Source: Bacteroidota bacterium (GTDB lineage Bacteria; Bacteroidota; Bacteroidia; JABEUT01). From it: 52,629 nt of DNA. This document shows positions 7,141-39,437 of the stretch, in pieces. A model generated the notes under the pieces. The model was not told where the DNA came from, made no database searches, and worked only from the letters and a program-made list of their open reading frames with translations. Position numbers and translations under genes: made by a program. The stretch lies in the NCBI GenBank assembly GCA_013289165.1, contig JABDAL010000010.1, positions 1 through 52,629 on the forward strand, written 5' to 3'. How positions within the stretch are numbered: position 1 is the stretch's first letter; every line of letters starts with the position of its first letter.

Positions 7141-7180
7141 CAAAAATAGAGGAGGAATACATGGCTTTTTAAAAGTCAAT
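7141..7180 (-). promoter_or_regulatory. ATTGAC/TATTTTTG promoter (regulon site 1)
   Basis: On the minus strand ATTGAC (7180-7175) is followed after 26 nt by TATTTTTG (7148-7141). The ATG of the NlpC/P60-like gene is 41 nt further on. It has the same architecture as sites at 14110, 14544, 18738 and 39398. Confidence 0.65.
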
Positions 7181-7219
7181 AACTCTGCAATATTCCTGTC
7201 ATTTTTGAAGATGCAGTAG

Positions 7220-7630
7220 TTAACCTAAAGGGTTTAACCGCCTTATAAAGTTTTTCTTATAAAAAGGACCTATGGGAATAGGGATAGAAGTGTTATTTAT
7301 AAAAATAGTAGTATTCTCTACTACTTTTATCATATCAATTTGAACAATATAGGAACGGTGTACGCGTACAAATTTGCCGGGAGGTAATTTGTCTTCAAGA
7401 GATTTAAACGTGATGGGCAAAATAAAACGTTGGTCTTTTGTGTTTACAATTACGTAATCTCCAAACGCCCCTAACCATAAAATATCATTATGAGGGACTT
7501 TAGTAAGAATAGAATTCTTCTTAATAAAAAAATAATCCGGTCCATTACTTAATTGATCAGTTTGTTTTGTGTCGTATGTATAAGTAGTAGGTTCTTTTTC
7601 TGAAAGAGCATAGTTTGTTGCGTTTTTCAT
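7220..7630 (-). CDS. stand-alone LytTR DNA-binding regulator
   Basis: A single LytTR domain fills most of the 136-residue protein. Diagnostic segments are DYFFIKKNSILTKVPHNDIL, WLGAFGDYVIVNT, LPITFKSLEDKLPPGKFVRV and HRSYIVQIDMI. There is no receiver domain, so it is not a full two-component regulator. The ATG at 7630 (MKNATNYAL..) is chosen; an upstream in-frame start at 7687 would add 19 residues that do not look like this family. It lies upstream of the NlpC/P60-like gene on the same strand, but the latter has its own promoter. Whether it controls any neighbour is not shown. Confidence 0.75.
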   Translation of the reverse strand: MKNATNYALSEKEPTTYTYDTKQTDQLSNGPDYFFIKKNSILTKVPHNDILWLGAFGDYVIVNTKDQRFILPITFKSLEDKLPPGKFVRVHRSYIVQIDMIKVVENTTIFINNTSIPIPIGPFYKKNFIRRLNPLG

Positions 7631-7891
7631 TTTTGTTTTTTTAAGGTGTGTATGTGAACAAATTTGACGATACAAATATGCCTTCATTAATTTCAGCGAG
7701 CGTTACACAACTTTTAAAGAAAGTTACATATATCACACAATATCCTTTTAACTTAAGATACATATCCTGGATGCTTTGCCTGCTGCAAGTCTACCTCGTA
7801 CCCGCTATTTGCACCCGTCCGAACGGTCCATCCGGGCGGGCATCGTGGGTGACAAAAAAATAAGTTGTACTTATTAAGTAAAGTTTAAAAA

Positions 7892-7923
7892 GATAATTAC
7901 CCACTAAAACAAGTTAGCGGGTA
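7892..7923. repeat. interspersed 32-bp repeat (copy A)
   Basis: This 32-bp segment is the reverse complement of 25662-25693 with one mismatch. It lies in the ~270-bp gap between the LytTR gene and the 7955-8431 lipoprotein. The stretch also holds a GC-rich imperfect palindrome around 7813-7850 and nothing that looks coding. Confidence 0.6.
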
Positions 7924-7954
7924 CGGGACCTTAAGAGGGAGATGAAATTCTTCT

Positions 7955-8431
7955 CTAGTTGTATTTTATATTTGCAAAAGAACCATTTGTAATGACAGGG
8001 CCTTTTACTGATGCAGTATCCAGACTAACAGTTGCAAAACTAAAAGTTCCGGAAATTACCCCATTATTATTTGAGTTTATGGTCAAAGTTCCGATAAAAG
8101 GAGCTATGTTTGTGTAGTATGTAGTTAAGGTTCTTGGATTAGGTCCAACTGAGCACTCTGCATATCCCGGTGTTACACCTCTTGATAATGAATATGTACC
8201 AATTTCATCACTGTTAATAACAAGTCTTACAACTTGTGTAATTGATGAGGAACTATAAGTAGCTGTAAGGCCATTGATAGATGTAGGAGTAAAAGCTGTA
8301 CCATTTATGTCACAGGTAAAACTTTGCACCGCTGAAGGTGTTGGACTATCAGATTTTTTACAATCTTGGAATGAAACCAATGTAATTGCTACGGCAATAA
8401 TTACGCCAAATTTTTTCAGAGGTGTTTTCAT
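7955..8431 (-). CDS. lipoprotein, DUF6252-like
   Basis: A 158-residue protein with a lipoprotein signal (MKTPLKKFGVIIAVAITLVS, lipobox ending at Cys24) and a short polar linker. The beta-rich body opens SFTCDINGTAFTPTSINGLT, a pattern typical of small Bacteroidota DUF6252 lipoproteins. Predicted to be membrane-anchored; function unknown. Confidence 0.65.
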   Translation of the reverse strand: MKTPLKKFGVIIAVAITLVSFQDCKKSDSPTPSAVQSFTCDINGTAFTPTSINGLTATYSSSSITQVVRLVINSDEIGTYSLSRGVTPGYAECSVGPNPRTLTTYYTNIAPFIGTLTINSNNNGVISGTFSFATVSLDTASVKGPVITNGSFANIKYN

Positions 8432-8526
8432 GGTGCGTTAATTAAATAGTAAAAGATATAACAAATATACAAAATATTTAATATATCATAGGTACAAGTC
8501 TACTCCTCCTTCCCTGCCTTTTTCAT

Positions 8527-8534
8527 TATCTTTG
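8527..8534 (+). promoter_or_regulatory. -7 box TATCTTTG
   Basis: Matches the Bacteroidota TAnnTTTG -7 element and lies 47 nt before the ATG of the lipoprotein at 8582. No convincing -33 TTTG is seen at the usual spacing. Confidence 0.5.
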
Positions 8535-8581
8535 CGGATAAGTGCAAAGAGTTAGACCAATTAACAGGGAAAAATAAGATA

Positions 8582-9052
8582 ATGAAAAAAATCCTTGCGT
8601 TTCTGATAGTATTGTTCTTAGTTACCTGCCAATCTAAGAAGGCTGACTTTGCTAGAAATTTAACAAATAACAATGGAAAGTATTGGGATGTTGTAGCTAT
8701 AATTCGACATAACATTAAGTATAAATCGTCACTATGCTTTTATTTTAATAAATCTGGTCTGTTGATTAAATATTTATATTATTCTCCAACTGAAAAAAGA
8801 ATAGATGAGGATTCCTTAAAGGATAGTTTGAGTGTAAAGTATGTTATCCAGGAATCTCGCTGGAAGTATATTGATAACGATTCAATAAGTATAATGGGTG
8901 CTATTTATGATATAAGGAAATTATCCGATGATAGCTTAATAATTTCTCCAAAAGATACCCTTAATTTTGATTTTTCAATGATTTTTCTTGCTAAAAGTAA
9001 ATTTCAATCATCAAAGTATGATTCTTCGATGGGTAATATTCCAAATCATTAA
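8582..9052 (+). CDS. hypothetical lipoprotein
   Basis: A 156-residue protein with a lipoprotein signal (MKKILAFLIVLFLVTC, Cys16). The mature part has repeated Lys/Tyr/Asp-rich beta-strand-like stretches (SLCFYFNKSGLLIKYLYYSP, ESRWKYIDNDSISIMG). No family is recognised. It is expressed from its own TATCTTTG box. Confidence 0.6.
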   Translation: MKKILAFLIVLFLVTCQSKKADFARNLTNNNGKYWDVVAIIRHNIKYKSSLCFYFNKSGLLIKYLYYSPTEKRIDEDSLKDSLSVKYVIQESRWKYIDNDSISIMGAIYDIRKLSDDSLIISPKDTLNFDFSMIFLAKSKFQSSKYDSSMGNIPNH

Positions 9053-9078
9053 CTACAGGGGTAGTGTTGGGCGACAAA

Positions 9079-9588
9079 TCACTCCTCCTTCCCATTCACC
9101 CAATTAAGGCAATAGCAAAGCTGAATCCATAATTTTTCAATGCGTTCCTGGGACAGCTTGTCAGCATCTACGTGGAAATAATAACGCAGCAGGGCCGCTT
9201 TTTTCAGTGTTTCGCTGCCCTCAAAAACCTCGTAATAGCGGTCTAGTTTTTTTAGCAGGTAGCGGGCCACCCGTATAAGCTCGCCGCAATATTGTACGGC
9301 TCCCAGGTAATACGTGTCGTTGTCATTATCCTGCATAAAGACCCTCGTGTCCGATTCTTCTTTTATAACCGTTGCATCAAACATGGTAACACTGGCCTTC
9401 ATCGGGCTTTGAATGGCCAAATCCATGCACTGCATTTTCGTGAAGGTCGTCGCCGCTTTAAAGTAGACAATACAGCATTCCTCGCCCTTTTCACCGGCAA
9501 GCACAGCCATATTTACTTTGCATTTATATTTTGCCTCCAGCTCTTTTCTCTTAGCGTTTACGGGCAAAGACACCGAATCACATGCCAT
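9079..9588 (-). CDS. hypothetical protein with coding signal
   Basis: Taken from the internal ATG giving MACDSVSLPVNAKRKELEAK; the longer frame to 9648 adds residues that are complementary to a plausible plus-strand fragment. The 169-residue product is mixed alpha/beta, with four Cys in the first 60 residues (KYKCKVNM, GEECCIVYF), a hydrophobic helix LGAVQYCGELIRVARYLLKK and an acidic end. No signal peptide and no recognised family. It is near the tail cluster but lacks the shared promoter motif. Confidence 0.5.
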   Translation of the reverse strand: MACDSVSLPVNAKRKELEAKYKCKVNMAVLAGEKGEECCIVYFKAATTFTKMQCMDLAIQSPMKASVTMFDATVIKEESDTRVFMQDNDNDTYYLGAVQYCGELIRVARYLLKKLDRYYEVFEGSETLKKAALLRYYFHVDADKLSQERIEKLWIQLCYCLNWVNGKEE

Positions 9589-9710
9589 ACGCACCATTAT
9601 TGAAGAGAAATTCGATAAGTTGCCACTACCCGATAAACTTATGTACAAGCGCTACATCCAAAAGCATTTTCCCGAAGAGTCCCGGTGCTTTGAAGCGGTA
9701 GAGTGAGCGT

Positions 9711-10589
9711 TCAATACAGCCCCACTGTACGATACCAATAACAATAAAACTTTCGCCAGGAAGAGTGTAACCGGGCTAACAAAGCGGATTTGAAAATCCT
9801 TTTTCGGGTAATAATAATGTGCATGTACGCTTCGTTTGTCATTAGTACATCGAGCTTCAAATATTCCATTATCTCTTTTAAAAGAGGCATATCAAAAACA
9901 TGGTGGTGCAAAGCTCTGTTTTCAAAATTTTTCAACGACCTTGCTTTAAATTGTTCAAAATTACCTGCCTGCAAATCCATCGATAAATCGTGCAGGGAGA
10001 GTATTTCGTCTAAATGGGTTAAATCATCTTCCTGTACATCGTTTTTAAAATCTTCCAGCAAATGCGAAAAACGTGTGACAGGGCGCTTACGGTCGAAACA
10101 GTAGTCTTTATTAGGCAAAATGAGCAACAGAATGCCGCCGGAATCTACAACCGACAGCCACTCATTTAATGCTTTCAGCGGGTTTGCCACATGCTCAAGG
10201 CAGTTGGAAGATAATAAAAACCTGTAATTTTTTTTAGGTATGTCGCTAACCAGGGTAGCTTCGGCAATAAATTGGATGCCCGTTTTGTTTTCGTGGTAGT
10301 TGAATGTTTGCCCGCTGTTGATACTGCCTTCCCATATAGTGCTGGCAGAAAAATTACAGTTATCAAGCGACTTGACAATAGTATATAGCGGCAAATAATT
10401 ATTTTTCTTCCCGAATAATCCACTTGGGCCTCCTATCTCTATACCCGCTTGGCCTTTAAACAATCTTCTTACAAGGGTATAATTTGGAACAACAGGCGTA
10501 GTATAGGGTTGCTGTATGAGCACCTTGCGGAGCGCATATTTAATACCCTTCTCTTTTAATACGGCCGGTAGTCTTTTTAAACGGTTCAA
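9711..10589 (-). CDS. class I SAM-dependent methyltransferase
   Basis: A 292-residue soluble protein. The SAM-binding motif I appears as AGIEIGGPSGLFGKK (about 49-63), and the family's post-motif acidic/His region as LLSSNCLEHVANPLKALNEW, followed by GGILLLILPNKDYCFDRKRP. This subtype is common next to glycosyltransferases in Bacteroidota. Here it stands alone between a hypothetical gene and a META-like gene. Substrate is unknown. N-terminal ~45 residues are basic and helical. Confidence 0.75.
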   Translation of the reverse strand: MNRLKRLPAVLKEKGIKYALRKVLIQQPYTTPVVPNYTLVRRLFKGQAGIEIGGPSGLFGKKNNYLPLYTIVKSLDNCNFSASTIWEGSINSGQTFNYHENKTGIQFIAEATLVSDIPKKNYRFLLSSNCLEHVANPLKALNEWLSVVDSGGILLLILPNKDYCFDRKRPVTRFSHLLEDFKNDVQEDDLTHLDEILSLHDLSMDLQAGNFEQFKARSLKNFENRALHHHVFDMPLLKEIMEYLKLDVLMTNEAYMHIIITRKRIFKSALLARLHSSWRKFYCYWYRTVGLY

Positions 10590-10680
10590 TCTGTTGTTTT
10601 CTAACTTACATCAAAGATAATAAATGAACTTTCTAATCGTTTATTAAATATTGTACATTTGAATAAAGTATATAATATCT

Positions 10681-11061: not shown

Positions 11062-11073
11062 TTTTTCACACTT

Positions 11074-11388
11074 TCAACTACCTATAACTATATTCTGCCC
11101 ATTCACATTAATGGTGAGTGTGCCATTCGTATTCTTAGAAGCAGAAAGGGAAGTAACCGTTTTTCCATCTAGTTTTAGTTGCTGGTTAATGGTATTGCTA
11201 AGTTTTTGCCCCGTGCCCGGGGAATTGAGATAATTGGGTGCTGCACATCCTACCAGCGGAAATTCTTTCCACCAGCCCGGGTAACTCATAACGATGCTTT
11301 GAACCTCTTGCAAAGTGCTGTCGCCAATGGTAAAATCGCCGGTGGTGATAAGCAAGTCATTACCGGGATCTGTTAAAATGTCAGTCAT
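11074..11388 (-). CDS. gp46-like phage baseplate wedge protein
   Basis: A 104-residue protein matching the Mu gp46-type pattern seen in Bacteroidota prophages. DPGNDLLITTGDFTIGDSTL gives the D-G-D-F-x-I-G-D signature, followed by EFPLVGCAAPNYLNSPGTGQ and a QLKLDGKTV strand. Such proteins join the baseplate wedge to the gp47/J protein. It is the last gene of the minus-strand unit 14004-11074 and lies 13 nt after the fibre gene. Confidence 0.7.
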   Translation of the reverse strand: MTDILTDPGNDLLITTGDFTIGDSTLQEVQSIVMSYPGWWKEFPLVGCAAPNYLNSPGTGQKLSNTINQQLKLDGKTVTSLSASKNTNGTLTINVNGQNIVIGS

Positions 11389-11401
11389 GTAAAATCAATT
11401 A

Positions 11402-12229
11402 TTAATAGATGGTATCCATTATATTATAAAAGGCTTCAAAGCTAAAAGTGTCTGACACCGGTACATTTGCTCCCGACAATGTTTGAGCATTAATATTTGC
11501 TGAACGGTCAATAGTTATAATACAAACTGTTCCGCTAGTCTGTTCCCATAAAAGGAAATTACGGGGAATTTTAGGAGCATATCCTGTGGGCAGGGTTGCA
11601 ATCGTTTGGCTGCTGACGGAGACTCCTGTAGAAAAAATGCCGGATATATAAACATTACCTAAGCCGTCCATTCTGTAAGTAGAGGATGGAACTAAATGAT
11701 ATGACAGGCCACTATACCCATTTGCACCTATATAAGTTAAGGTTGTTACTGTTCCGGTATCAAGTGCAGCCGACCACACCCCGTTAGTTGACAAATCTTT
11801 CCAGTTTGCATAAGCGGGAAAGTCACCGGGCCCGGCTTCAACAAATAATATCGTGCGAATAACATGCGCATTTGCCGTTCCGGAAGTGGAGAGTGGCGTA
11901 GGGTCGGATGTAGAATAAGTAGTTGCCACATTGCAAAATGGCAATCCGCTTGTATCCTGTGTGGGAACATAATAAATTTCGCCCTGGTAGTAAATCCAGC
12001 CCTGTGCATCGAAGCCCGATGTCTGGTTCCAGAGCCAGGTCACTTTTGTATCGTCTGTAATAAGCGATTCGCATATAGCTTGTATGCATTCGTAATACGA
12101 CTGCTGCAAAAAGTCAATTCCTGCCAGTGCCGGGTCACCGTTGTTATTCATAAAATTTTTGCCCTGTGCATTTGCCAGTAATGCCAGCCAGTTGCTGTTT
12201 GTTACAGCCGATGTATCTATATTTTTCAT
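11402..12229 (-). CDS. phage tail fibre/receptor-binding-like protein
   Basis: A 275-residue protein, rich in Thr, Ser, Gly and Asn. The N-terminal ~90 residues are helical (FLQQSYYECIQAICESLITD). The middle is beta-rich, and a C-terminal module (YRMDGLGNVYISGIFSTGVS then LPTGYAPKIPRNFL) resembles tip domains of tail fibres, where an LPxGYxP turn is frequent. It lies between the gp46-like gene and an unknown structural gene. Binding target unknown; the fibre role is inferred from composition and position. Confidence 0.6.
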   Translation of the reverse strand: MKNIDTSAVTNSNWLALLANAQGKNFMNNNGDPALAGIDFLQQSYYECIQAICESLITDDTKVTWLWNQTSGFDAQGWIYYQGEIYYVPTQDTSGLPFCNVATTYSTSDPTPLSTSGTANAHVIRTILFVEAGPGDFPAYANWKDLSTNGVWSAALDTGTVTTLTYIGANGYSGLSYHLVPSSTYRMDGLGNVYISGIFSTGVSVSSQTIATLPTGYAPKIPRNFLLWEQTSGTVCIITIDRSANINAQTLSGANVPVSDTFSFEAFYNIMDTIY

Positions 12230-12252
12230 TTTATATTATTTTTACTTTATAA

Positions 12253-13134
12253 CTAATACGTTACTATATTATAACTCATTCCCGCCGCATTAATGGTATT
12301 CACAAAGGCGATTACAATCTGTGTCTTTTTTGTTGTATAGCCGGATGCCTCAGTGGTTAAGGAGTTATATACTGCCACGGGAATGTATATGGTAAAATCG
12401 GTGGAGGACAGGGCTTGTGCAACCGTAGCCATAAAATAAACTGCCGGAGGCGAAGCAGGTGCCATAAAGCTTTGGGAGTCGGGTGAAGAGGGCCCCATCA
12501 TAAACTGGGCATCTACATTATCGTTTGTATTGATGTAGATATCGGGTGTACCTGTGGGATTACCTACAGGGTCATTGCCCAGCCCGTTTGGCTGGCGGAA
12601 AGTCGTGTTGAACCAGAGGTTCAGCGCATATTCAAAAGCCAGGCAGGTGGAGTTGAAAGCTGCCCGCGAAACAGCACCGATAAAATTATCCTGCACTTTT
12701 ACCCACGAATATTGCTGCACCCATGCCAGCACAGTGGCCCAATTATAATTGGCTGCGGCTGTTACAATACTTTGGGGCGGAGTATCGGGAACTATGTTTG
12801 CAACGCTTGGAGCTGCACTTCCCGTGCTATTATTAATCCATTCATACACGGCATTATCGCCAATATTTCCATGCGTATCGTTGCATACGCCAAAAATGAC
12901 ACGGTCGCCTAAGGAATAGGAACTTGCCCCCGAAAAATAGGGTGTAGTTACCACCGGGCCGGCTCCGTTTGCGTAGCTGCCTAATACAGCATCTGCTTTC
13001 CACTGTTTCCCCGACAATAAAGCTATTCCCCATTCAAGCCATGCAGGTGTGCGCCTGTCGGGTGGTACCAGCAATTTCCATACCACATTTTGGTAATCTA
13101 TGCTGTATATGCCTATGGGTGTAGGGTAGCTCAT
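12253..13134 (-). CDS. baseplate-associated structural protein, unassigned
   Basis: A 293-residue protein starting MSYPTPIGIYSIDYQNVVWK. The N-terminal segment LLVPPDRRTPAWLEWGIALL resembles tail/baseplate adaptor openings. The body is Trp- and Tyr-rich with many Gly/Asn turns (SYSLGDRVIFGVCNDTHGNI) and a late helix TQIVIAFVNTINAAGM. It lies 6 nt after the gp47/J-like gene and before the fibre gene, so a baseplate or fibre-adaptor role is likely, but I do not recognise the family securely. Confidence 0.55.
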   Translation of the reverse strand: MSYPTPIGIYSIDYQNVVWKLLVPPDRRTPAWLEWGIALLSGKQWKADAVLGSYANGAGPVVTTPYFSGASSYSLGDRVIFGVCNDTHGNIGDNAVYEWINNSTGSAAPSVANIVPDTPPQSIVTAAANYNWATVLAWVQQYSWVKVQDNFIGAVSRAAFNSTCLAFEYALNLWFNTTFRQPNGLGNDPVGNPTGTPDIYINTNDNVDAQFMMGPSSPDSQSFMAPASPPAVYFMATVAQALSSTDFTIYIPVAVYNSLTTEASGYTTKKTQIVIAFVNTINAAGMSYNIVTY

Positions 13135-13140
13135 GGGCTA

Positions 13141-14004
13141 TTACACGGCGATGTAGGTTATGCTGTCGTCCCAGTTATAACCCGACGTTTCTATTTCTGC
13201 TACATTTCCGGCGTATGGCTGCCAGTTCCGGTTAATGATGGCATTGCTTTGAACCAGGTACGTTCCATTGCCCCACGAGGGAGGTGGGTGGATTGCATTT
13301 TCTGCTGCCGTTTGTATCCACACATTGTTCAGCACCACGTCCTGCACCCCGGCAACGGCTAGCATAGCTGCTTCCATCTGGCTTATTTCAAATGTTCCGT
13401 TAAATGGCAGGGTGGCGAAAAAGGCTGTTAAGGTAGCATCCATATTGGTGCCTATCACGGCGGAATAAGCAGCATTGTAGTAAACCTGTGCCTGTATATA
13501 AATTAAATCCGGCGAGGATGACTGCAAGGTAAATTGCGTTCCGGGTATCATCCAGGTGTTCATGTCACTCAACAAGGCATCGTATTGTGGCGTAGTTAAT
13601 GCCCCCGACGATGTAGATGCCTTAATAAGCAGGCTACGGTTGCTTACCGCCACCACAGCAGCATTGGTAATAATTTGAAGTGATGGTATTACGGTGGGAT
13701 AGCTGATGGTGAAGGGCGGAGCAGTCAGTAATGTCCTTACCTGTATGGGGCTCGATGCATATTGAAATTGCTTAAGCATAGATACTATCCAGGCGGGAGT
13801 GTAAACGGTTGCTTCGGCAATATTGTTTTCGATGGTGGCAGTAAATAAATCACACAACTGCTCAAACAGGTTTTGCCCTGCAGCCGTTATCCATAGCCAC
13901 AAGTTCCATATGCTGACCTGCGAGGCAGAGTTGAGCCCGCTTAAAGCCGGTTGGTTATTTTTTTGCTGGAGAAGCTGGGTGTATATGGTGGGAATGCTAC
14001 GCAA
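13141..14004 (-). CDS. gp47/baseplate-J-like protein
   Basis: A 287-residue protein beginning MRSIPTIYTQLLQQKNNQPA. It has a helical N-terminal part (WITAAGQNLFEQLCDLFTAT), then TYTPAWIVSMLKQFQYASSP-like sequence typical of Bacteroidota baseplate J relatives. The second half contains STSSGALTTPQYDALLSDMN and PDLIYIQAQVYYNAAYSAVI, the repeated assembly region, and ISQMEAAMLAVAGVQDVVLN near the C-terminus as in gp47/J. It is the first gene of the four-gene baseplate/fibre unit and is preceded by shared-type promoter site 2. Confidence 0.7.
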   Translation of the reverse strand: MRSIPTIYTQLLQQKNNQPALSGLNSASQVSIWNLWLWITAAGQNLFEQLCDLFTATIENNIAEATVYTPAWIVSMLKQFQYASSPIQVRTLLTAPPFTISYPTVIPSLQIITNAAVVAVSNRSLLIKASTSSGALTTPQYDALLSDMNTWMIPGTQFTLQSSSPDLIYIQAQVYYNAAYSAVIGTNMDATLTAFFATLPFNGTFEISQMEAAMLAVAGVQDVVLNNVWIQTAAENAIHPPPSWGNGTYLVQSNAIINRNWQPYAGNVAEIETSGYNWDDSITYIAV

Positions 14005-14109: not shown

Positions 14110-14151
14110 CAAAAATAGCCGGAAGGATATGCTCGTTTATTTTAGTCAATG
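14110..14151 (-). promoter_or_regulatory. ATTGAC/TATTTTTG promoter (regulon site 2)
   Basis: On the minus strand CATTGAC (14151-14145), a 27-nt spacer and TATTTTTG (14117-14110) lead into a ~100-nt AT-rich leader before the baseplate J gene. The rest of the 14005-14108 gap holds only low-complexity TAATTA-type sequence. Confidence 0.65.
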
Positions 14152-14156: not shown

Positions 14157-14525
14157 TCACGCTTTCGCTTCGGGCCCGAAATAGGCAAGGGCATCTTCGC
14201 CGCTCGTTGTGAAATAATGTTCAAAATACATTTCCGTTTTTTGCAAACGACTCCCTTTTTTTATGTCTACATCAAATATGCAAAGTATAGTATCATCGTC
14301 CAAATGCTCGCCTGTTTGGCGATGCGTGGCTTTATCCATGTAGGCGAAAAACTTTTCATACCACGAAGGGATGAGCGAAATAGTGCGCAGCGGAATAAAG
14401 TTATCCTGGTGAAATTTGATAGCTGCCTGTATGCAGTCAATCACTTTATTACCTGTGAGTACAATATGTTTTATAAAACGGAGTTTTTCCGTTCCGGGAA
14501 TTTTTACACCTGATTCACTTTCCAT
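14157..14525 (-). CDS. hypothetical protein of the tail cluster
   Basis: A 122-residue soluble protein, starting at the ATG at 14525 (MESESGVKIPGTEKLRFIKH). A TTG start further upstream would overlap the -7 box of its promoter, so it is rejected. The sequence contains NFIPLRTISLIPSWYEKFFA, TILCIFDVDIKKGSRLQKTE and a C-terminal AYFGPEAKA. Family not recognised. It has its own shared-type promoter (site 3) and is followed directly by site 2, tying it to the tail regulon. Confidence 0.6.
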   Translation of the reverse strand: MESESGVKIPGTEKLRFIKHIVLTGNKVIDCIQAAIKFHQDNFIPLRTISLIPSWYEKFFAYMDKATHRQTGEHLDDDTILCIFDVDIKKGSRLQKTEMYFEHYFTTSGEDALAYFGPEAKA

Positions 14526-14543
14526 ACCTGTTGGCTTTGAATC

Positions 14544-14585
14544 CAAAAGTATGGAACAGGAAAAATGCTTCTCAAAAAGTCAATG
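14544..14585 (-). promoter_or_regulatory. ATTGAC/TACTTTTG promoter (regulon site 3)
   Basis: On the minus strand CATTGAC (14585-14579), a 27-nt spacer and TACTTTTG (14551-14544) precede the ATG at 14525 by 18 nt. The spacer shares GAG, AGCA-like and ATTTTTC pieces with site 4. Confidence 0.7.
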
Positions 14586-15290: not shown

Positions 15291-16319
15291 ATGAAATACA
15301 AATTATTAGGTAATACAGGGCTTAAAGTATCGGAACTATGCCTCGGTGCCATGACTTTTGGCGGCAAAGGATACTGGACTAATATCGGCACACTCGGGCA
15401 ACCCGAAGTGGATGGGCTGGTAGGCAAATCGGTAGAAAACGGAATCAACTTTATTGATACAGCCAACGTATATTCCGAAGGAGTGTCGGAAGAAATGACC
15501 GGCAAGGCCATCCGCAACCTGGGTTTGAATAGAGATGATTTAGTGATTGCTACCAAAGTGCGTGGCAAAATGAGTGAAGGGACTAACGGAGTAGGGCTTA
15601 GCCGTAAGCATATCTTGCACGAAGTGGAAGCCAGCCTGCGCCGCCTCAACATAGATTATATTGACCTTTACCAGATACATGGCTACGATGAAATTACTCC
15701 CATCGAAGAAACTATTGATGTACTCGACTCCCTCGTAAAAAGCGGGAAGGTTCGCTATATCGGTTGCAGCAACTTGGCAGCATGGCATATTATGAAAGCC
15801 GCAGCCTATTCACATTATAACCGCATTTCTAAATTTATTTCCCTGCAAGCATACTACACTATTGCAGGCAGAGATCTGGAGCGCGAAGTAATCCCCTTAT
15901 TGAAAGACCAGCAAATGGGCCTGATGGTATGGAGCCCCTTGGCAGGCGGGCTGCTGAGCGGAAAATATAACCGCAGCATGGAGGCCGATGCAGGCTCAAG
16001 GCGTATTAATTTCGATTTTCCCCCGGTAAATAAAGAACGGGCATTTGATATTATTGATATGTTGCAACCTATGGCACAGGAAAAGAAGGTGTCGGTGGCA
16101 CAGCTTTCGCTCGCATGGCTATTGCATCAGCGGGTGGTAACAAGTATCATCATCGGGGCAAAGAGTATTACCCAATTGGAGGATAACCTTCATTCTGTTG
16201 AGGTAACATTTACACCCGATGAATTGGATCAACTGGATGAAGTAAGCAAACTCCCCGCCGAGTACCCCGGCTGGATGATCGAACGCCAGGGTGGCGCGGA
16301 CAGGAGGAAGCAGTCTTAA
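15291..16319 (+). CDS. aldo/keto reductase
   Basis: A 342-residue NADP-dependent oxidoreductase of the AKR superfamily, cytoplasmic. The family layout is complete: NTGLKVSELCLGAMTFGG at the N-terminus, FIDTANVYSEGVSEEMTGKA with catalytic Asp and Tyr, IATKVRG with catalytic Lys, and DLYQIHGYD with catalytic His. GCSNLAAWHI and IIIGAKSITQLEDNLHSVEV form the cofactor region. Substrate cannot be read from sequence. It is a single gene with its own TATCTTTG box. Confidence 0.9.
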   Translation: MKYKLLGNTGLKVSELCLGAMTFGGKGYWTNIGTLGQPEVDGLVGKSVENGINFIDTANVYSEGVSEEMTGKAIRNLGLNRDDLVIATKVRGKMSEGTNGVGLSRKHILHEVEASLRRLNIDYIDLYQIHGYDEITPIEETIDVLDSLVKSGKVRYIGCSNLAAWHIMKAAAYSHYNRISKFISLQAYYTIAGRDLEREVIPLLKDQQMGLMVWSPLAGGLLSGKYNRSMEADAGSRRINFDFPPVNKERAFDIIDMLQPMAQEKKVSVAQLSLAWLLHQRVVTSIIIGAKSITQLEDNLHSVEVTFTPDELDQLDEVSKLPAEYPGWMIERQGGADRRKQS

Positions 16320-18375: not shown

Positions 18376-18588
18376 CTACCTCCCTTTCATCTTCACCCCC
18401 GTCTGTTCTTCCACAAACTTTTCATCCACTGTAAATCCTGCGCGAGATAGTGTTTCTACCAGGTTGGCAAAATCACTTTTGCGTTTGCTGTCAACTTCGG
18501 TAATTTCGTTTAATTCCGAATTGTTGGGGTAGCCATAACGTATATCCTGCGGGATATGAAAACCGAGCTTGCGCAGCTTGGGCAGCAC
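18376..18588 (-). pseudogene. C-terminal fragment of a DUF935/gp29-like phage portal protein
   Basis: A 70-residue ORF whose sequence (MLPKLRKLGFHIPQDIRYGY, then FANLVETLSRAGFTVDEKFV and EEQTGVKMKGR) resembles the extreme C-terminus of Mu gp29-like (DUF935) portal proteins of Bacteroidota prophages. The other ~380 residues are absent. It starts only 8 nt after a truncated gp36-like gene, so both look like ends of a deletion. The portal assignment is by remembered pattern, not alignment. Confidence 0.5.
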
Positions 18589-18596
18589 ATTGTCGT

Positions 18597-18710
18597 TTAC
18601 TGGGCATTTTCTTCCGCATCAGCTTGCACCAGCGGGTCGCCTTTAGTAAGTTGGTTAAGTATCGTAGATTGGATTTGCGGCAGGTAATCGCGGGCTCTTA
18701 GGAAAGACAT
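18597..18710 (-). pseudogene. truncated gp36/DUF1320-like phage protein
   Basis: A 37-residue ORF starting MSFLRARDYLPQIQSTILNQ and ending LVQADAEENAQ. It matches the opening helix of Mu gp36-like (DUF1320) proteins, which typically read M-F-L-x-x-x-D-Y ... followed by a D..R..AE helix. Full-length members are about 130-150 residues. It retains shared-type promoter site 4 and a 27-nt leader, so the control region survived while the gene was deleted. Confidence 0.5.
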
Positions 18711-18737: not shown

Positions 18738-18779
18738 CAAAAGTAGAGCGTCGAAAAATCTGTTCCTCAAAAGTCAATG
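18738..18779 (-). promoter_or_regulatory. ATTGAC/TACTTTTG promoter (regulon site 4)
   Basis: On the minus strand CATTGAC (18779-18773), a 27-nt spacer and TACTTTTG (18745-18738) lie 27 nt before the gp36-like remnant. Confidence 0.7.
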
Positions 18780-27620: not shown

Positions 27621-27705
27621 GAGGCAGCAATTTAAAGCGTATACTATAATAATATATTTGTCGTTATAAAGAGATAATAGTTTTAATAATTTTCCATTTA
27701 GTTTG
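27621..27705 (+). promoter_or_regulatory. duplicated promoter/leader, copy 1
   Basis: TATATTTG at 27653-27660 lies in an ~85-nt block that is repeated at 28375-28459 (GAGGCAGCAA, ATATATTTGTCGTTATAAA, TTTCCATTTAGTTTG). The block runs into the TTG start, so promoter, leader and start codon were duplicated with the gene. Confidence 0.55.
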
Positions 27706-28359
27706 AAATCATACAACATAAAAAGAGGCTGGTATTATATCATACTGCTTTTTCTGTTAGGCTGTCATCAAAGCAGCAAAGTGGTTTCTACTTTTGGCAA
27801 AAGGAAATATACCGGGGGATATTATTTCCTTCCCCCTAAATCATTGCCTGCGTCGGCAACTGTCATCAGCAAGGCACCGCCCCAAAATGTCATTAAACCC
27901 CTTCCCGGAAACAGTTCAACACTCCAAGATATATCCCTCCCCGCTATAAGCCGGCATTTGCTGCCTGTTTTGAAGACACTGCCTCAAACAGTGACAAGCA
28001 AGACAATAGATATACCCGGCAATACCGTAACAACAAAAAGTGTTAATGAGGATGGTGTCCCTGACCACAATCTCAGTCAAAATACCAGGAACCATTCCCA
28101 TTATGGGGAGGTTGGATTTACCATGATAATCTTGCAAATAGTGCTAATCCTTTTAGGTGGAATTATCCCCGGATTGCTTTCTGCTACGGGTGGACTTATT
28201 TTACTTCTTCTTGTAGGGTCATCAATTTTATGTATAGCCGGCCTGGCGGTAAAAACAGAAAAATACCGGGGCTATGCCATTGCCGGCCTGGTGATTGACA
28301 TTTTAGAAATAATAGGATTTATTTTAGTCATTGCATTGCTTGTTTCATCGTGCGTGTAA
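27703..28359 (+). CDS. lipoprotein with DUF4190-like membrane domain, paralogue 1
   Basis: A 218-residue protein using a TTG start (no better ATG in frame). The lipoprotein signal ends at Cys in LLFLLGCHQSSKVV. The linker is Pro/Ser/Thr-rich (about 40-135). A C-terminal pair of membrane helices follows (VGFTMIILQIVLILLGGIIP and AIAGLVIDILEIIGFILVIA) with a short VKTEKYRG loop, as in DUF4190 domains. The first 45 residues are almost identical to the next gene, the linker is not. Function unknown. Confidence 0.65.
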   Translation: MKSYNIKRGWYYIILLFLLGCHQSSKVVSTFGKRKYTGGYYFLPPKSLPASATVISKAPPQNVIKPLPGNSSTLQDISLPAISRHLLPVLKTLPQTVTSKTIDIPGNTVTTKSVNEDGVPDHNLSQNTRNHSHYGEVGFTMIILQIVLILLGGIIPGLLSATGGLILLLLVGSSILCIAGLAVKTEKYRGYAIAGLVIDILEIIGFILVIALLVSSCV

Positions 28360-28374
28360 ATAATAATCACCATC

Positions 28375-28459
28375 GGAGGCAGCAACTTTTAGTATACACT
28401 ATAATGATATATTTGTCGTTATAAAAATTAATAGTTTTAATAAATTTCCATTTAGTTTG
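28375..28459 (+). promoter_or_regulatory. duplicated promoter/leader, copy 2
   Basis: Second copy of the 27621-27705 block, TATATTTG at 28408-28415. Confidence 0.55.
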
Positions 28460-29104
28460 AAATCATACAACATAAAAAGAGGTTGGTATCTTCTTATAGT
28501 GCTGTCTCTGTTGGGATGCCATCAAAGCAGCAAGGTGGTCTCCAGTTTTGGCAAGCGAAAATATACCAAGGGTCATTTCTTCGTGCATCCCAAATCAGTT
28601 CCTGAATCTCCTGTTATTGTTAGCAAAACTCCGAGAAAAGATATACTGAAAAATACCCCTGTTCCCGACAATACTATTATCCCTCTTTCATACAGGATTT
28701 CTCTTCCTGCTTTAAAGAACTTGCCCGGTAACGCAGTAGCAGTAACTGAAACCACTGCCGACCCGGCTCCTATTGCCCCGGTAGAAAAACAGTTTACAAA
28801 GGAGGATGGAATACCTGACCATAATCAGACTCAAGGTAACACAAATACAACTAGTTTTGGACTTATAGGATTTATATTAGCAATCGCCGTACCGGCCTTA
28901 TTGCTTCTATCTGGCGTAGCCGCTCCTTTATCATCTGTTGCGGGACTTTGTTACCTGGCATCGCTTGGCTTTTGCATAGTAGGGTTATGTGTAAAGACAG
29001 AACCATCCAGGGGATTTGCCCTCGCAGGCCTCATTATTGATATAGTCGATATACTAGTAGCTCTTTTATTTATTTTGTTGCTAGTTGCACTGCTTGGAGC
29101 ATAA
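28457..29104 (+). CDS. lipoprotein with DUF4190-like membrane domain, paralogue 2
   Basis: A 215-residue paralogue of 27703-28359 with the same TTG start and signal (MKSYNIKRGWYLLIVLSLLG). It has HQSSKVVSSFGKRKYTKGHF, a divergent Pro-rich linker, and a C-terminal DUF4190-like helix pair (IGFILAIAVPALLLLSGVAA, ALAGLIIDIVDILVALLFIL) joined by VKTEPSRG. Tandem duplication with strong sequence drift in the linker suggests selection on ends rather than on the middle. Confidence 0.65.
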   Translation: MKSYNIKRGWYLLIVLSLLGCHQSSKVVSSFGKRKYTKGHFFVHPKSVPESPVIVSKTPRKDILKNTPVPDNTIIPLSYRISLPALKNLPGNAVAVTETTADPAPIAPVEKQFTKEDGIPDHNQTQGNTNTTSFGLIGFILAIAVPALLLLSGVAAPLSSVAGLCYLASLGFCIVGLCVKTEPSRGFALAGLIIDIVDILVALLFILLLVALLGA

Positions 29105-32437: not shown

Positions 32438-32440
32438 GGA

Positions 32441-33800: not shown

Positions 33801-33805
33801 TATTC

Positions 33806-34044: not shown

Positions 34045-34191
34045 GATTCTGTTTTTGATTTGCTTTTGAATAGCAAATTTAAAGTATTTATATTATCAGC
34101 TTTACAATGTTAAATTTTGTAGGGTGGCAGATTTTTAATTCCTGTTCTGCCATAATTTGTATTGCAAATCTTTTGGCAAGGTTTTTGAAGG

Positions 34192-34199
34192 TATATTTG
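34192..34199 (+). promoter_or_regulatory. -7 box TATATTTG of the grpE-dnaJ unit
   Basis: TAnnTTTG element 73 nt before the grpE ATG. The remaining 34045-34190 gap shows no gene. No CIRCE-type inverted repeat was found. Confidence 0.45.
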
Positions 34200-34272
34200 C
34201 GGGCCGATTTGAGTTATGAATTATTAATTATGAATGTTATTTGTTGTTTATCAATAGATTATATAATATAGT

Positions 34273-34818: not shown

Positions 34819-34841
34819 CAAGTAAGTGTTAAATTTCAATA

Positions 34842-35987
34842 ATGGCTAAAAGAGATTTTTATGAAGTGCTGGGTGTGGATAAGAGCGCATCGGCTGACGA
34901 GATAAAAAAGGCATACCGTCAAAAAGCATTGCAGCATCACCCTGACCGCAACCCTGGCAACAAGGAATCAGAAGAACATTTTAAAGAAGCTGCTGAAGCC
35001 TACGAGGTACTTAGCGACCCTGATAAAAAAGCCCGTTACGACCGCTATGGACATGCCGGAATAGGCAGCAGTGCCGCATCTGACGGGGGCATGGGCGGTT
35101 TTGGCAATATGGAAGACATTTTTAGCCGTTTTGGAGATGTATTCAGCGAATTTGGATTTGGCGGAGGAGGTTTTCAACAGGGAGGAAGGAGTGTTAACAG
35201 GGGTTCTAATCTTCGCGTAAAATTAAAACTCACCTTGTCGGAAATAGCCCATGGAGTAGAGAAAAAAATAAGGGTAAATAAGCAGGTATCCTGTGCAGAG
35301 TGCCAGGGCACGGGAGCTGAAAAAGGCTCGAGCTATAATACCTGCACCACCTGCCATGGCTCGGGATATGTAAACAGGGTTCAACGTACTTTTATAGGGC
35401 AAATTCAAACTACAACTCCTTGCCCCACTTGCAACGGCGAGGGAAAAATAATTACTAAAAAATGCAAGGCTTGCCATGGGCATGGCATAACGGAAGGTGA
35501 AGAAGTAGTGAGTATCAAGATACCTGCCGGGGTGGAAAACAATATGCAGTTGTCTGTCTCGGGGCAGGGCAATGCGGCAGCACGGGGAGGCATTCCCGGC
35601 GACCTGATTGTGTTAATTGAAGAGATGGAGCACGAATTGCTGAAGCGCAATGGCTCCAATCTCTATTACGACCATTATATCAATATTGCTGATGCGGCTA
35701 TGGGCATAACTATTGAAGTGCCTACCATTGACGGCAAAGCCAGTGTAAAGGTAGATGCGGGTACGCAAAGCGGAAATATTTTACGTCTTAAAGGGAAAGG
35801 GCTGCCCAGGCTGAACCAGTATGGCAAGGGCGATATCCTGGTTAATATATCTGTATGGACCCCGCAAAATCTTACCAGTGAAGAAAAGAAGGCATTAGAG
35901 TCGCTTCGCAAATCTCCTAATTTTAATCCAGACCCGGGGAAAAAGAACAAAAGTTTCTTCCAGCGGATTCATGAGATGTTCGACTAA
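34842..35987 (+). CDS. dnaJ: chaperone protein DnaJ
   Basis: A 381-residue Hsp40 with the full type I layout. The J domain has HPD ([16 protein letters not shown], about residue 34), followed by a Gly/Phe linker ([20 protein letters not shown]). Four zinc-binding CxxCxGxG repeats follow ([32 protein letters not shown]) and then a C-terminal substrate domain. It stimulates DnaK ATPase and holds unfolded proteins. Operon with grpE. Confidence 0.97.
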
Positions 35988-36044
35988 TATTTCGTACTGC
36001 GTTCCATTTATTTGTTATTTTCGTGCCGGAATTAGAAGAGCACG

Positions 36045-36980
36045 ATGGGGAATATTATTTCAGCAAAAAATATTGTTAAGCGTTACTCCAAGCACGTAGC
36101 TTTAAATGATGTAAGCTTTAATGTTCCAGAGGGGGTAATCTACGGATTACTGGGCCCTAATGGGGCAGGCAAAACTTCCATGATTCGTATTATCAATCAA
36201 ATTACGGCTCCCGATGGGGGAGAAGTGCTGTTTAATGATGAGAAACTGGTGCCAAACCATACCAAGTTTATCGGCTACCTGCCCGAAGAAAGGGGACTCT
36301 ACAAAAAAATGAAAGTAGGCGAGCAGGCACTCTACCTTGCCCGCTTAAAAGGGATGGAAAAGAATGAAGCTATTGCAAGACTGAAAGAATGGTTTATCAA
36401 ATTTGATATAATAGCATGGTGGGATAAAAAAGTGGAAGACCTTTCGAAAGGGATGCAGCAGAAGGTGCAGTTTATTGTAACCGTTTTACATGAACCTAAG
36501 CTGCTGATACTCGATGAACCTTTCAGTGGCTTCGATCCCATCAATGTGGAATTGATAAAAAGTGAGTTGTTGCGCCTGCGGAAACAGGGTGCTACTATTA
36601 TCCTGTCTACCCACAACATGGCTTCGGTGGAAGAGCTTTGCAATAACATAACCCTCATTAACCAATCGAAAGCCGTATTGGAAGGAAATGTGAATGAATT
36701 GAGGCATAATTTCAAGCAACATGCCTGGGAAGTGAAATTTGAGGGAGAAAAGGAAGCTGTAAAAAATGCATTAAGCGGCAAATTTGAACTTTTGGATATT
36801 GCACCTGAAATTAATTTCATGGTTGCAAGAATTAAAATTCCCCAGGGGCTTCCTTCCAATGACCTGATAAAAACACTGCTCCCCGTGTGCACGGTTATTG
36901 GTGTTTCTGAAATACTTCCCTCTATGAATGAAATATTTATTTCTGCCGTAAAGGGTACCTCACCAAAACAACAAGCATGA
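36045..36980 (+). CDS. ABC transporter ATP-binding protein (NatA/ABC-2 type)
   Basis: A 311-residue cytoplasmic ATPase. Walker A GLLGPNGAGKTSMIR, Q-loop area YLPEERGLYKKMKVGEQALY, signature LSKGMQQKVQFIV, Walker B KLLILDEPFSGFDP and switch His in STHNM are all present. The C-terminal ~80 residues form the DUF4162-like extension seen in NatA-type exporters. It overlaps the permease gene by 4 nt, so the two make one exporter. Substrate unknown; NatAB relatives export sodium. Confidence 0.92.
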   Translation: MGNIISAKNIVKRYSKHVALNDVSFNVPEGVIYGLLGPNGAGKTSMIRIINQITAPDGGEVLFNDEKLVPNHTKFIGYLPEERGLYKKMKVGEQALYLARLKGMEKNEAIARLKEWFIKFDIIAWWDKKVEDLSKGMQQKVQFIVTVLHEPKLLILDEPFSGFDPINVELIKSELLRLRKQGATIILSTHNMASVEELCNNITLINQSKAVLEGNVNELRHNFKQHAWEVKFEGEKEAVKNALSGKFELLDIAPEINFMVARIKIPQGLPSNDLIKTLLPVCTVIGVSEILPSMNEIFISAVKGTSPKQQA

Positions 36981-38311
36981 GCAAAATATCACTTATCATA
37001 CAGAGGGAATATACGACAAGGGTGAGGAAAAGAGCTTTCCTTGTTATTTCTATTTTGGGGCCATTGCTGTTTGCCGGAATTATGTTTGCCCCTATGTTGA
37101 TTGCTAATAGCAAAAATGAAAACCAGCGGGTGGTGGTAGTGGATGAAACCAAGACTTTATGTAACGTTTTGCAAAGCAACTCTACCGTCCATTTCGATTA
37201 TAATTATTGTAGTATCGACATCACCGCTGTAAAAAAAATATTTGCTGATTCGGGGCATGTATCGGTGCTTTATATTCCGCGTGTGGAACAAATAATCCAG
37301 GTAGAGCTTTATTCGAAAAACGATCCGGGCGATGATGTGGTTTCAGCTATAGAGTACCAATTGAACAATGTGCTTGAACGGGCTAAAATGCAGGCTGAAA
37401 ACCTTGACCAGTCTACCATTGACAAGGTTAAATCGAACGTCAGGGTGAACGATATTGTAGGCAATAAATTGTCGAATTCAAGCTATAATGCTGTGCTTGG
37501 CTATGCCTGCTCTTTTCTCATTTATATTTTTATTCTCCTCTATTCCGTGCAGGTGATGCGTGGTGTGATGGAGGAAAAAACCAGCCGCATTGTGGAAATA
37601 ATTATATCCTCGGTGCGCCCCTTTCAGCTTATGATGGGTAAGGTGATTGGTGTAGGGCTTGTAGGTTTGACGCAGTTTTTGATATGGGTCATTTTGTGCT
37701 TTGGGGCTTTCCAGGTGGGCTCGGCTTATTTTCAAAGCCAGCAAATAAACCCTAAAAATGCAGCCATAGAACAAACTATTAAATCAGGAATGCCGGTACA
37801 AAGCAATAATACTGTAACTGCAAAAACTGAACATGCGAGCGCAACTACTGTCGGTGCATTAGATAATATGGATAATATGCTAAGGGCAACTAACTGGATA
37901 CTTGTTATCGGCGGCTTTTTATTCTATTTTCTCTGCGGGTATATTTTGTATAGTGCATTGTTTGCGGCGGTGGGCTCTGCCGTCGACCAGGACACGGAAA
38001 CGCAGCAGTTCATGCTCCCCGTAACCGCTCCGCTGATACTTTCTATTATCATTATGCAGAGCATTATCACCAATCCGCATAGTAGTGTGGCTGTGTGGTT
38101 TTCTATCATTCCTTTCACCTCGCCCATTGCCATGATGGCGCGTATCCCTTTTGGAGTGCCTGCCTGGCAATTGGGCTTATCAATGGCGGTGCTGGTGGCA
38201 TCTATTTTTGGCACGGTTTGGCTGGCCGGAAGAATTTACCGCGTAGGGCTGCTTATGTATGGTAAAAAAGTTACCTACAGGGAGCTCGGCAAATGGCTAT
38301 TCTATAAATAA
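36977..38311 (+). CDS. ABC-2 type transporter permease (NatB-like)
   Basis: A 444-residue inner-membrane protein. An N-terminal membrane helix (KRAFLVISILGPLLFAGIMF) is followed by a large extracytoplasmic domain (about 45-170), then five or six further helices. MRGVMEEKTSRIVEIIISSV and PFQLMMGKVIGVGLVGLTQF carry the conserved E-x-x-x-R-x-x-E-I cytoplasmic motif of NatB/ABC2 permeases. It overlaps the ATPase gene by 4 nt. Confidence 0.9.
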   Translation: MSKISLIIQREYTTRVRKRAFLVISILGPLLFAGIMFAPMLIANSKNENQRVVVVDETKTLCNVLQSNSTVHFDYNYCSIDITAVKKIFADSGHVSVLYIPRVEQIIQVELYSKNDPGDDVVSAIEYQLNNVLERAKMQAENLDQSTIDKVKSNVRVNDIVGNKLSNSSYNAVLGYACSFLIYIFILLYSVQVMRGVMEEKTSRIVEIIISSVRPFQLMMGKVIGVGLVGLTQFLIWVILCFGAFQVGSAYFQSQQINPKNAAIEQTIKSGMPVQSNNTVTAKTEHASATTVGALDNMDNMLRATNWILVIGGFLFYFLCGYILYSALFAAVGSAVDQDTETQQFMLPVTAPLILSIIIMQSIITNPHSSVAVWFSIIPFTSPIAMMARIPFGVPAWQLGLSMAVLVASIFGTVWLAGRIYRVGLLMYGKKVTYRELGKWLFYK

Positions 38312-38319
38312 TATAGGTT

Positions 38320-39390
38320 TTGCGGATATTCGTTTCACCTTTGGACTGGGGCTTAGGCCATGCTGCAAGGTGCATTCCGCTTATCCGGTATTTACTCGAA
38401 AAAAAAGCAGAAATTGTCATAGGCGCGGAGGGTGCACATCTCACTTTTTTGAAGGAGTACTTTCCCCATCTTGAATATATTGAGTTTCCGGGGTACCGTA
38501 TTTCCTACTCTTCTCTTTTTTCTGCCGGAATTAAGGTATTGTCGCAAGTGCCACAACTTGTTTCCGCTATCAAAAATGAGCATGTGTTAGTAGCCCAAAT
38601 TATTAAAGAGAAAAAAATTGATGCAGTAATTTCAGATAATCGTTATGGCTTGTGGAATAGAAATGTTCCCTGTGTGATAATTACCCACCAATTAAATATA
38701 CAGGCAGCAGCGGGTAGCAGCTTCCTCAGCTGGATAATCTATAGCTATATTAAGCATTTCCGGGAATGCTGGATTCCGGATTATGAAGGCGAAGAAAATT
38801 TATCGGGAGTGCTTTCTCATCCTGTTCCTAAAGGGATAAATGGAAAATATATAGGCCCCCTTTCAAGGTTCGGTTCCCCTAAGGACTACTACAAGAAAGA
38901 CAAGTACGATTTATTGGTAATTCTTTCGGGCCCTGAACCGCAACGAACCAAACTGGAACAATTAGTTCTAAGCCAATTAAAGGATTTACCACATATTAAA
39001 ACAGTAATCCTGCAAGGCTTGCTGGGGGCTAAACGCAAAGATACAGGCTTGCCCCATGTGGAGATGATTCCACATGTAAGCGATGAAGAATTCCATGAAA
39101 AGGTAATGGGCAGCAATATAGTACTAAGCCGCCCCGGCTACTCTACCCTTATGGATTTGAGCGCCATAGGCTGGAAGAAATCAATTTTAATTCCTACTCC
39201 GGGACAAACAGAACAGGAATATTTAGGGAAACTGGTGCAAGAGAAAGGCATAGGTATAAGCTATCCTCAGAAAAATTTTATATTAAATAAAGCAATTCAG
39301 CAGGCGGGAAAATTAAAACCTATTCAGGCAATACACGGAAATAGCAATTATAAAAAAGTAGTGGATGATTGGTTAAGCCAAAGCCATTGA
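38320..39390 (+). CDS. GT28/MurG-like glycosyltransferase
   Basis: A 356-residue two-domain protein with a TTG start at 38320; no better ATG is in frame. The N-terminal Rossmann half opens MRIFVSPLDWGLGHAARCIP, typical of UDP-GlcNAc-type transferases acting in the cytoplasm. The C-terminal half has the nucleotide-sugar region LPHVEMIPHVSDEEFHEKVM and GSNIVLSRPGYSTLMDLSAI, then PTPGQTEQEYLGKLVQEKGI with the conserved E-Q-x-E-Y-L end. It follows the ABC exporter by 8 nt. Sugar and acceptor are unknown. Confidence 0.8.
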   Translation: MRIFVSPLDWGLGHAARCIPLIRYLLEKKAEIVIGAEGAHLTFLKEYFPHLEYIEFPGYRISYSSLFSAGIKVLSQVPQLVSAIKNEHVLVAQIIKEKKIDAVISDNRYGLWNRNVPCVIITHQLNIQAAAGSSFLSWIIYSYIKHFRECWIPDYEGEENLSGVLSHPVPKGINGKYIGPLSRFGSPKDYYKKDKYDLLVILSGPEPQRTKLEQLVLSQLKDLPHIKTVILQGLLGAKRKDTGLPHVEMIPHVSDEEFHEKVMGSNIVLSRPGYSTLMDLSAIGWKKSILIPTPGQTEQEYLGKLVQEKGIGISYPQKNFILNKAIQQAGKLKPIQAIHGNSNYKKVVDDWLSQSH

Positions 39391-39397
39391 CTTCTCA

Positions 39398-39437
39398 TTG
39401 ACCTTTTAAAAGGGCGCTTTACACGAAATTATTTTTG
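39398..39437 (+). promoter_or_regulatory. ATTGAC/TATTTTTG promoter (regulon site 5)
   Basis: Plus strand CATTGAC (39396-39402), 27 nt, TATTTTTG (39430-39437), 41 nt before the tail-terminator-like gene. A second CATTGAC lies 11 nt upstream (39385-39391), overlapping the end of the glycosyltransferase gene. Confidence 0.65.

Follow-up and report, generated by a model that had tools for sequence, protein, structure and literature searches.

The window analysed here, a stretch of 52,629 nucleotides (nt) of contig JABDAL010000010.1 from a Bacteroidota bacterium (assembly GCA_013289165.1), contains five intergenic sites in which an ATTGAC element is followed at a nearly constant distance by a Bacteroidota -7 box. 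With a probability of roughly 0.65, we interpret these sites as promoters of the activator type that belong to a single regulon, controlled in trans and dispersed over the chromosome, for a Mu-like, contractile-tailed particle of the gene transfer agent (GTA) or domesticated-phage type. According to this interpretation, a dimeric activator would bind a GTCAWTGAC dyad at about -44 and bring RNA polymerase to a promoter that would be weak by itself, with only the sigmaA -7 box TAYNTTTG retained. The regulon would encode gp36, portal, head protease, virion protein, tail, baseplate, lysis, TerL and TerS-like parts, and would be partly decayed in the genome to which the window belongs. We further infer co-induction of these genes, the production of particles and the packaging of host DNA. 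The regulatory signature is real and unusually clean, and the regulon of the original prediction, described there as a dispersed set of tail-particle genes, is right in kind but too narrow in content.

A scan with the pattern ATTGAC-N25..28-TAYTTTTG recovered all five sites (Table 1) at the places and with the shared architecture that had been predicted, four of them with a spacing of 27 nt and one with 26 nt. They are the only five exact matches in the window, compared with an expectation of 0.02 from dinucleotide-preserving shuffles, and none of 100 such shuffles reached five. The claim that no other ATTGAC in the window is paired with the box at this distance was also borne out, as none of the remaining words (15 per strand) has a TAnnTTTG at a spacing of 26-27 nt. 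In the own genome as a whole, which is 70% complete (2,215,062 bases in 116 contigs), there are no exact matches other than these five sites, and the reversed pattern, which served as a second control, has none. Site 5 carries tandem CATTGAC copies (window 39386-39402), the second ATTGAC being located 11 nt upstream of position 39397.

The proposed search of related genomes revealed that the motif recurs before homologous genes in three congeneric genomes, labelled G002, G005 and G007, next to the own genome G000. The exact pattern was surveyed in 60 genomes (the own genome, 10 of the genus and 49 of the class) and matched 31 of them, with nine matches in G007, seven in G002, six in G005, five in G000 and not more than three in any other. 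The reversed control gave 2, 0, 0 and 0 matches in G002, G005, G007 and G000, respectively, and up to four elsewhere, and one exact match each in G005 and G007 looks like chance from its sequence. A profile of 50 positions (R1), built from 24 sites, separates the genomes of the genus more clearly: at E<=0.001 it has 82 matches in the 11 genus genomes (42 in G002, 20 in G007, 14 in G005 and 6 in G000), 24 of which had served for training, the other 58 lying outside the training set. The other seven genus genomes have no match at this threshold and six up to E 0.1, the best of them at 0.0023. With a stricter pattern, 43 stretches were found in the contigs of GTDB r220, namely 32 in three uncultured Bacteroidetes metagenome-assembled genomes (MAGs; CAIPDV 23, JABDCH 5, CAIWVW 4) and 11 single ones elsewhere. 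These three MAGs match three of the four motif genomes, and the window's own genome is possibly outside this set. The same stricter pattern matched five IMG/VR contigs, three of which share one identical sequence. We rejected viruses as carriers of the promoter, as each of these five sites is located within a coding gene or spans the border between two; the most that the respective phages otherwise have in common with the regulon is a protease of 27% identity.

An alignment of the 22 sites with a spacing of 27 nt, out of 25 sites from the four genomes, revealed that the conservation extends beyond ATTGAC. The upstream element reads [AG]GTC-ATTGAC-TTTT, contains the dyad GTCA-W-TGAC and is followed by a spacer with weaker AAA and CTTTTT blocks and by TA(T/C)NTTTG. 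The fuller motif is the dyad-bearing (A/G)GTCAWTGACTTTT, the centre of which is at a distance of about 32 nt from the TAYNTTTG box, on its upstream side. Since the sigmaA -7 box of Flavobacterium psychrophilum is placed at -12 to -5 in the available part of PMC9723704, the centre of the dyad would be located near -44. Further degenerate sites exist in the own genome, namely a profile match on contig C63, sites with a variant -7 box at the TerS-like genes on C48 and C67, and a site at TerL on C46 that varies in both the upstream element and the box.

For an overview of the genes served by the promoter, 78 sites were classified by eye, comprising 25 exact-pattern sites in fetched loci and 53 further profile matches; the four genomes have 110 profile matches at E<=0.1, and the unclassified rest is mostly, not always, weaker. 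Seventeen sites precede particle-type genes or genes tied to their cluster (for two of these, at L043 and L097, the gene itself has no phage profile), five precede TerS-like genes with a helix-turn-helix (HTH) domain, 50 head the array elements described below, and six belong to other genes or are cut by a contig end. In G005, eight of the 18 profile matches (E<=0.1) are located on a single 41-kb contig (binomial p 9e-12). This contig encodes for the head a Mu gp36-like adaptor (PF07030), a Mu portal (PF06074, E 4.8e-47), a head maturation protease (phrog_94, E 2.7e-41) and a virion protein (phrog_11320, phrog_20525), for the tail a sheath (PF10758, phrog_907), a tube-like protein and a baseplate hub, and for lysis an endolysin and a GH108 lysozyme. 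The homologues of the baseplate, terminator-like and 122-aa genes of the window all lie within this cluster. Head, tail and terminase genes, a combination expected of a GTA, are all present in G005. The promoter is found on several contigs per genome, the contigs being fragmented. As had been predicted, genes of phage type at scattered places share one promoter architecture, but they are not restricted to tail particles: the promoter is also carried by, or lies ahead of, genes for head, portal, protease, terminase and lysis. The expectation that the sites concentrate at phage structural genes did not hold in G002 and G007, where most of the classified sites head hairpin/array elements.

The terminase genes belong to the same picture. 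The promoter precedes TerL in G005; in G002 it stands in front of a TerS-like gene, after which TerL comes next, and in G000 TerL is preceded by a variant of the promoter. TerL orthologues with E about 1e-299 occur only in these three genomes and are 71% identical across them; in G000 and G005 they are located on other contigs than the particle genes. In IMG/VR there are at least 506 relatives of TerL, the best 80 of which have 32-54% identity. The TerS-like HTH family (best Pfam match: HTH_Tnp_1_2) has matches at E<1e-30 only in those four genomes that carry the motif, with two copies in G000, three each in G002 and G005 and four in G007, and there are weak matches (about 1e-10) in four of the seven motif-free genus genomes. 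Judged by its gene neighbourhood, this is a predicted small-terminase family. Among the best 80 of 283 viral loci with a relative, 59 have a TerL match, and TerL begins within about 155 nt after the HTH gene in 20 of 30 viral loci among the matches listed. All four proteins tested match the terminase small subunit phrog_4044, weakly and consistently (E 4e-5 to 6e-4). Within the genus, only one of the 12 strong copies, on C81 of G002, is situated directly before TerL. The dyad lies upstream of 11 of these 12 genes (in one case with one mismatch), while the twelfth begins at a contig edge; one dyad-bearing gene in G007 looks broken, and both copies in G000 have the dyad together with a variant -7 box. 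Upstream of the TerS-like and XRE-type promoters we also observed inverted and direct repeats with words like CGTGACAT or TGTGTCAG, at the loci L206 and L213 (G000), L211, L212 and L140.

The particle genes appear to have been in the genus for a long time. In 22 pairwise comparisons, their synonymous divergence (dS) is at least 0.97 or not computable, and their nonsynonymous divergence (dN) is mostly 0.04-0.22, with higher values for the sheath (0.31) and two faster baseplate genes (0.36-0.56). The dN/dS ratio is 0.04-0.25 in the nine of these 22 comparisons in which it was computable. For the aldo/keto reductase, a host gene that is found inside the cluster in the window and in G005 and beside it in G007, dN is 0.13-0.16 and dN/dS 0.03-0.11. 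The G005 cluster is interleaved with further host-type genes, among them type IX sorting-domain proteins, and an amino-acid permease follows the last particle genes. No integration or replication genes were seen among the scanned open reading frames of G005, a result that does not come from a directed genome search. Because of the constrained protein change, the near-saturated synonymous sites and the shared host gene, an old, vertically inherited, GTA-like system is suggested. Within one part of the genus these genes give the impression of an old set that has been passed on vertically and that is closer to a GTA or a domesticated phage than to a phage still active. The bacteria may have retained an old virus for purposes of their own.

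The same genes could also be the remains of an ordinary Mu-like temperate phage, whose scattered and decaying prophage copies would carry late promoters controlled by a phage-encoded activator of the Mor/C type. The Mu-type gene content, the decay in G000 and an integrase-family gene beside TerL of G002 (Phage_integrase, a tyrosine recombinase; PF00589, 1.4e-46) agree with this, although the latter could be a host XerC/D. Moreover, late promoters of phage Mu with a dyad activator site provide a precedent. However, the near-saturated synonymous divergence at constrained protein change, the host gene that three species have within the cluster or next to it, the 71% identity of TerL in three genomes and its separation from the particle-gene contig in G000 and G005, as well as the lack of IMG/VR relatives of the terminator-like and baseplate proteins in a peptide-pattern scan, all argue against it, and we consider this explanation unlikely.

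The most abundant targets of the promoter are array elements, which account for 50 of the 78 classified sites (39 in G002 and 11 in G007) and for none of the 5 classified sites in G000 and the 11 in G005. With 39 classified copies in one genome, they form a family of repeat elements that is tied to small-terminase-type genes. The approximately 260 nt downstream of the promoter consist of a hairpin, which contains an inverted copy of its word, some 60 nt and an array in which this word is directly repeated about 3-8 times, and the word class varies from copy to copy (ATTGC, TGTTA, ATAGT and ATATTA types). After the 50 elements had been sorted by eye from the rest, their mean autocorrelation showed peaks at lags of 11, 22-23 and 33-34 nt, which were absent from the 26 other sites long enough for the test. 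A perfect hairpin was detectable in 40 of the 50 elements, and its word fits the own array better than the arrays of other elements (sum 157 versus at most 118 in 20,000 permutations, none of which reached the observed value), a result that is possibly inflated by related copies; in five of the 40 elements the chosen word is absent from the array of the same element (score 0). A word-count shuffle test of the arrays was mostly non-significant because the words are T-rich. Many arrays are crossed by a short open reading frame, the frame of which differs between copies. Five elements are directly followed by a DUF5681-like (TerS-type) gene and a few others, judged by eye, by apparent remnants of the start of such a gene. 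Among the best 80 of 95 viral relatives of DUF5681, 31 have a TerL match in their 3-kb flanks; none of the five copies in the genus is known to adjoin TerL. In the motif-free genomes G003 and G004, DUF5681 relatives with ATTGTTATTATCAATA-like hairpins upstream were observed (L226, L227, L229), and the association of hairpin and DUF5681 may be older than the promoter. At gathering thresholds, Rfam gave only two tRNAs in 12 sources and, for 11 element loci, no match apart from one tRNA outside the element. No described counterpart of the arrays was found in Rfam or in the open-access literature searched, subscription papers and preprints being outside this search.

Our guess is that the array elements are pac-like sites or packaging RNAs. 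In a GTA-like system with programmed packaging, they would act as dispersed, transcribed pac-like starts or packaging RNAs that are read by different TerS-like proteins, and many chosen places of the chromosome would be loaded into particles; we mention this as a speculative and rather improbable extension. The array family makes the question of how the particles would choose their DNA directly testable. One could also turn the argument around and assume that the motif belongs mainly to the arrays as a mobile or repeat family, and that the phage genes, a minority of the regulon, share the promoter only secondarily. The sheer number of arrays (50 of the 78 sites) and the fact that G002 keeps dozens of them with no structural genes found would fit this assumption, but the classified sites in G000 and G005 are free of arrays and serve particle and terminase genes among others, and such an origin of the motif is improbable.

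Several observations weigh against a GTA-like regulon under one activator. In the window's species, gp36 and portal are broken at the site 4 locus (a deletion remnant), and the genome, which is 70% complete, yielded no further portal, so this species may no longer be able to build a packaging particle. G002, which is 98% complete and has TerS and TerL and 57 profile matches at E<=0.1, yielded no portal, sheath or terminator gene in the searches made, which covered these three and not the capsid or other genes. To this can be added the preponderance of arrays among the classified sites of G002 and G007, the integrase-family gene mentioned above and an IS1595 transposase that adjoins a TerS-like gene in G007. 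G003, which lacks the motif, has a distant TerL (E 2e-57) and G010 a weak match (7e-12), and several sites at TerS-like genes are without an exact TAYNTTTG box. The saturation of dS leaves the dN/dS ratios rough, and distances between loci are not visible in the fragmented MAGs. Finally, as to the regulator, a LytTR protein fails as a candidate, and TerS-like HTH and XRE-type proteins are candidates only.

The LytTR gene beside site 1 was rejected as the activator, as it is not co-distributed with the motif. A close relative exists only in G007 (72%), the best relatives in G002 and G005 have 34% and 53% identity, and four motif-free genomes have relatives with 63-67%. A different LytTR response regulator was observed beside TerL of G005 (L233:49-795, C72), possibly by chance, because LytTR genes are frequent in these genomes. 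Besides the TerS-like HTH family, a second candidate is a 77-aa HTH_3 (XRE-type) protein, which has dyads upstream in G005 and G002, a 47% match at a locus without the motif in G000, and no match in G007.

A tail-only particle (a tailocin or extracellular injection system), which would correspond to the tail-only regulon of the original prediction, is very improbable, and we rejected it. The intact phage-type genes of the window are of the tail type or possibly the lysis type, but in the relatives the same promoter also serves the portal, the head protease, a virion protein and both TerL and TerS-like genes, the last two being served in the own genome as well. The prediction had further left the choice between a dedicated activator and a dedicated sigma factor, and here the dyad favours the former, as a dimeric activator near -44 would fit it better than a sigma factor would. 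Usual sigma70-type spacers are about 10 nt shorter than the spacing of these sites. The strict spacing of 26-27 nt could be expected from an alternative sigma factor that reads ATTGAC together with the downstream box, but this is hardly credible, because the box is of the ordinary sigmaA -7 type (available part of PMC9723704) and is separated by 27 nt from an upstream element that has the form of a dyad.

Table 1 Promoter sites and genes of the window, with example loci of the array elements
Feature	Position	Strand	Description	Basis
Site 1	7141..7180	-	spacing 26; precedes 290-aa gene	pattern match
Site 2	14110..14150	-	spacing 27; precedes baseplate operon	pattern match
Site 3	14544..14584	-	spacing 27; precedes conserved unknown 122-aa gene	pattern match
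Site 4	18738..18778	-	spacing 27; precedes gp36/portal deletion remnant	pattern match
Site 5	39397..39437	+	spacing 27; precedes 199-aa terminator-like gene	pattern match
Relative of G005 gene adjoining spike-like gene	4800..5216	-		62% over 52 aa
290-aa gene	6228..7100	-	possible cell-wall hydrolase	no profile match
LytTR-domain protein	7220..7687	-	adjoins site 1	not co-distributed with motif
Relative of G005 L042:2051 and G007 L046:1730	9079..9648	-	G007 copy has promoter	
104-aa baseplate-operon gene	11074..11388	-	conserved	G005 70%, G007 76%
275-aa gene	11402..12229	-	tail-fibre or minor-tail-like	weak phrog_3285, E 0.048
293-aa baseplate-operon gene	12253..13134	-	conserved	G005 35%, G007 41%
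Baseplate wedge (J-like) protein	13141..14004	-		homology and profiles
Unknown ~122-aa protein	14157..14546	-		76% identity in G005 and G007
Aldo/keto reductase	15291..16319	+	host gene	
gp36/portal remnant	18376..18710	-	first 37 gp36 codons, stop, then last 70 portal codons	
Terminator-like protein, 199 aa	39479..40078	+		phrog_6911; 74% to G005, 72% to G007
Array elements, example loci	L036-L051 and L086-L139		in G002 and G007, e.g. L103, L102, L126, L050	

The labels given to the genes of the window fared differently. The baseplate assignment is supported by phrog_6 (E 1.4e-5) and phrog_38413 (E 1.7e-20), and the gp36-like remnant through its homologue in G005. The 290-aa gene had been labelled NlpC/P60, for which no Pfam or PHROG match was found at E<=0.1. 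The name tail terminator is based on phrog_6911, a family of unknown function, and on the position in the cluster, and the structure models of this protein (pLDDT 47.5) and of the 122-aa protein (pLDDT 44.1) are too poor for a structure search. The 275-aa gene has three tandem relatives in G005. Elsewhere in the window there are two tandem paralogous gene pairs, at 27703-29104 and 46934-48893 (48% and 58% identical).

If the proposed regulon is real, a Bacteroidota example would join the few lineages with GTA-like systems, and a single promoter would provide a sequence signature for finding the scattered parts of a particle. A close regulatory parallel is the late regulon of phage Mu, in which the C protein acts at the late promoters. 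In both cases a dyad activator site has a fixed place upstream of weak promoters of lysis, head and tail genes, but here the dyad is another one, the -7 box is that of Bacteroidota, and the sites are scattered among host genes. Common Bacteroidota sigmaA promoters (TAnnTTTG) have the identical -7 box and differ from the present sites, which have a conserved dyad about 32 nt upstream and a partly conserved spacer. The pac sites of phages adjoin terS genes. Like them, the arrays have words that recur about once per helical turn next to genes of the TerS type; unlike them, the arrays, known from their sequence alone, exist in dozens of dispersed copies with promoters and copy-specific words of their own. 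No such regulon was found in the open-access literature on GTAs, DUF5681 and pac-site repeats, nor in the available parts of PMC12946183 and PMC7947584, and no Bacteroidota GTA of this kind appeared in the GTA literature among the matches listed. The available part of PMC12946183 describes GTAs as multiple operons that are dispersed in the genome and have no autonomous replication machinery. The present system shares with RcGTA and other GTAs the phage-derived head, tail and terminase genes, their location at several loci, a shared control signal and an apparent vertical maintenance; it differs from them in its Mu-like portal and gp36 and in being known from its genes alone. It also differs from RcGTA, the TerS of which is without a specific DNA-binding domain according to the available part of PMC7947584, in possessing several TerS-like genes with an HTH domain.

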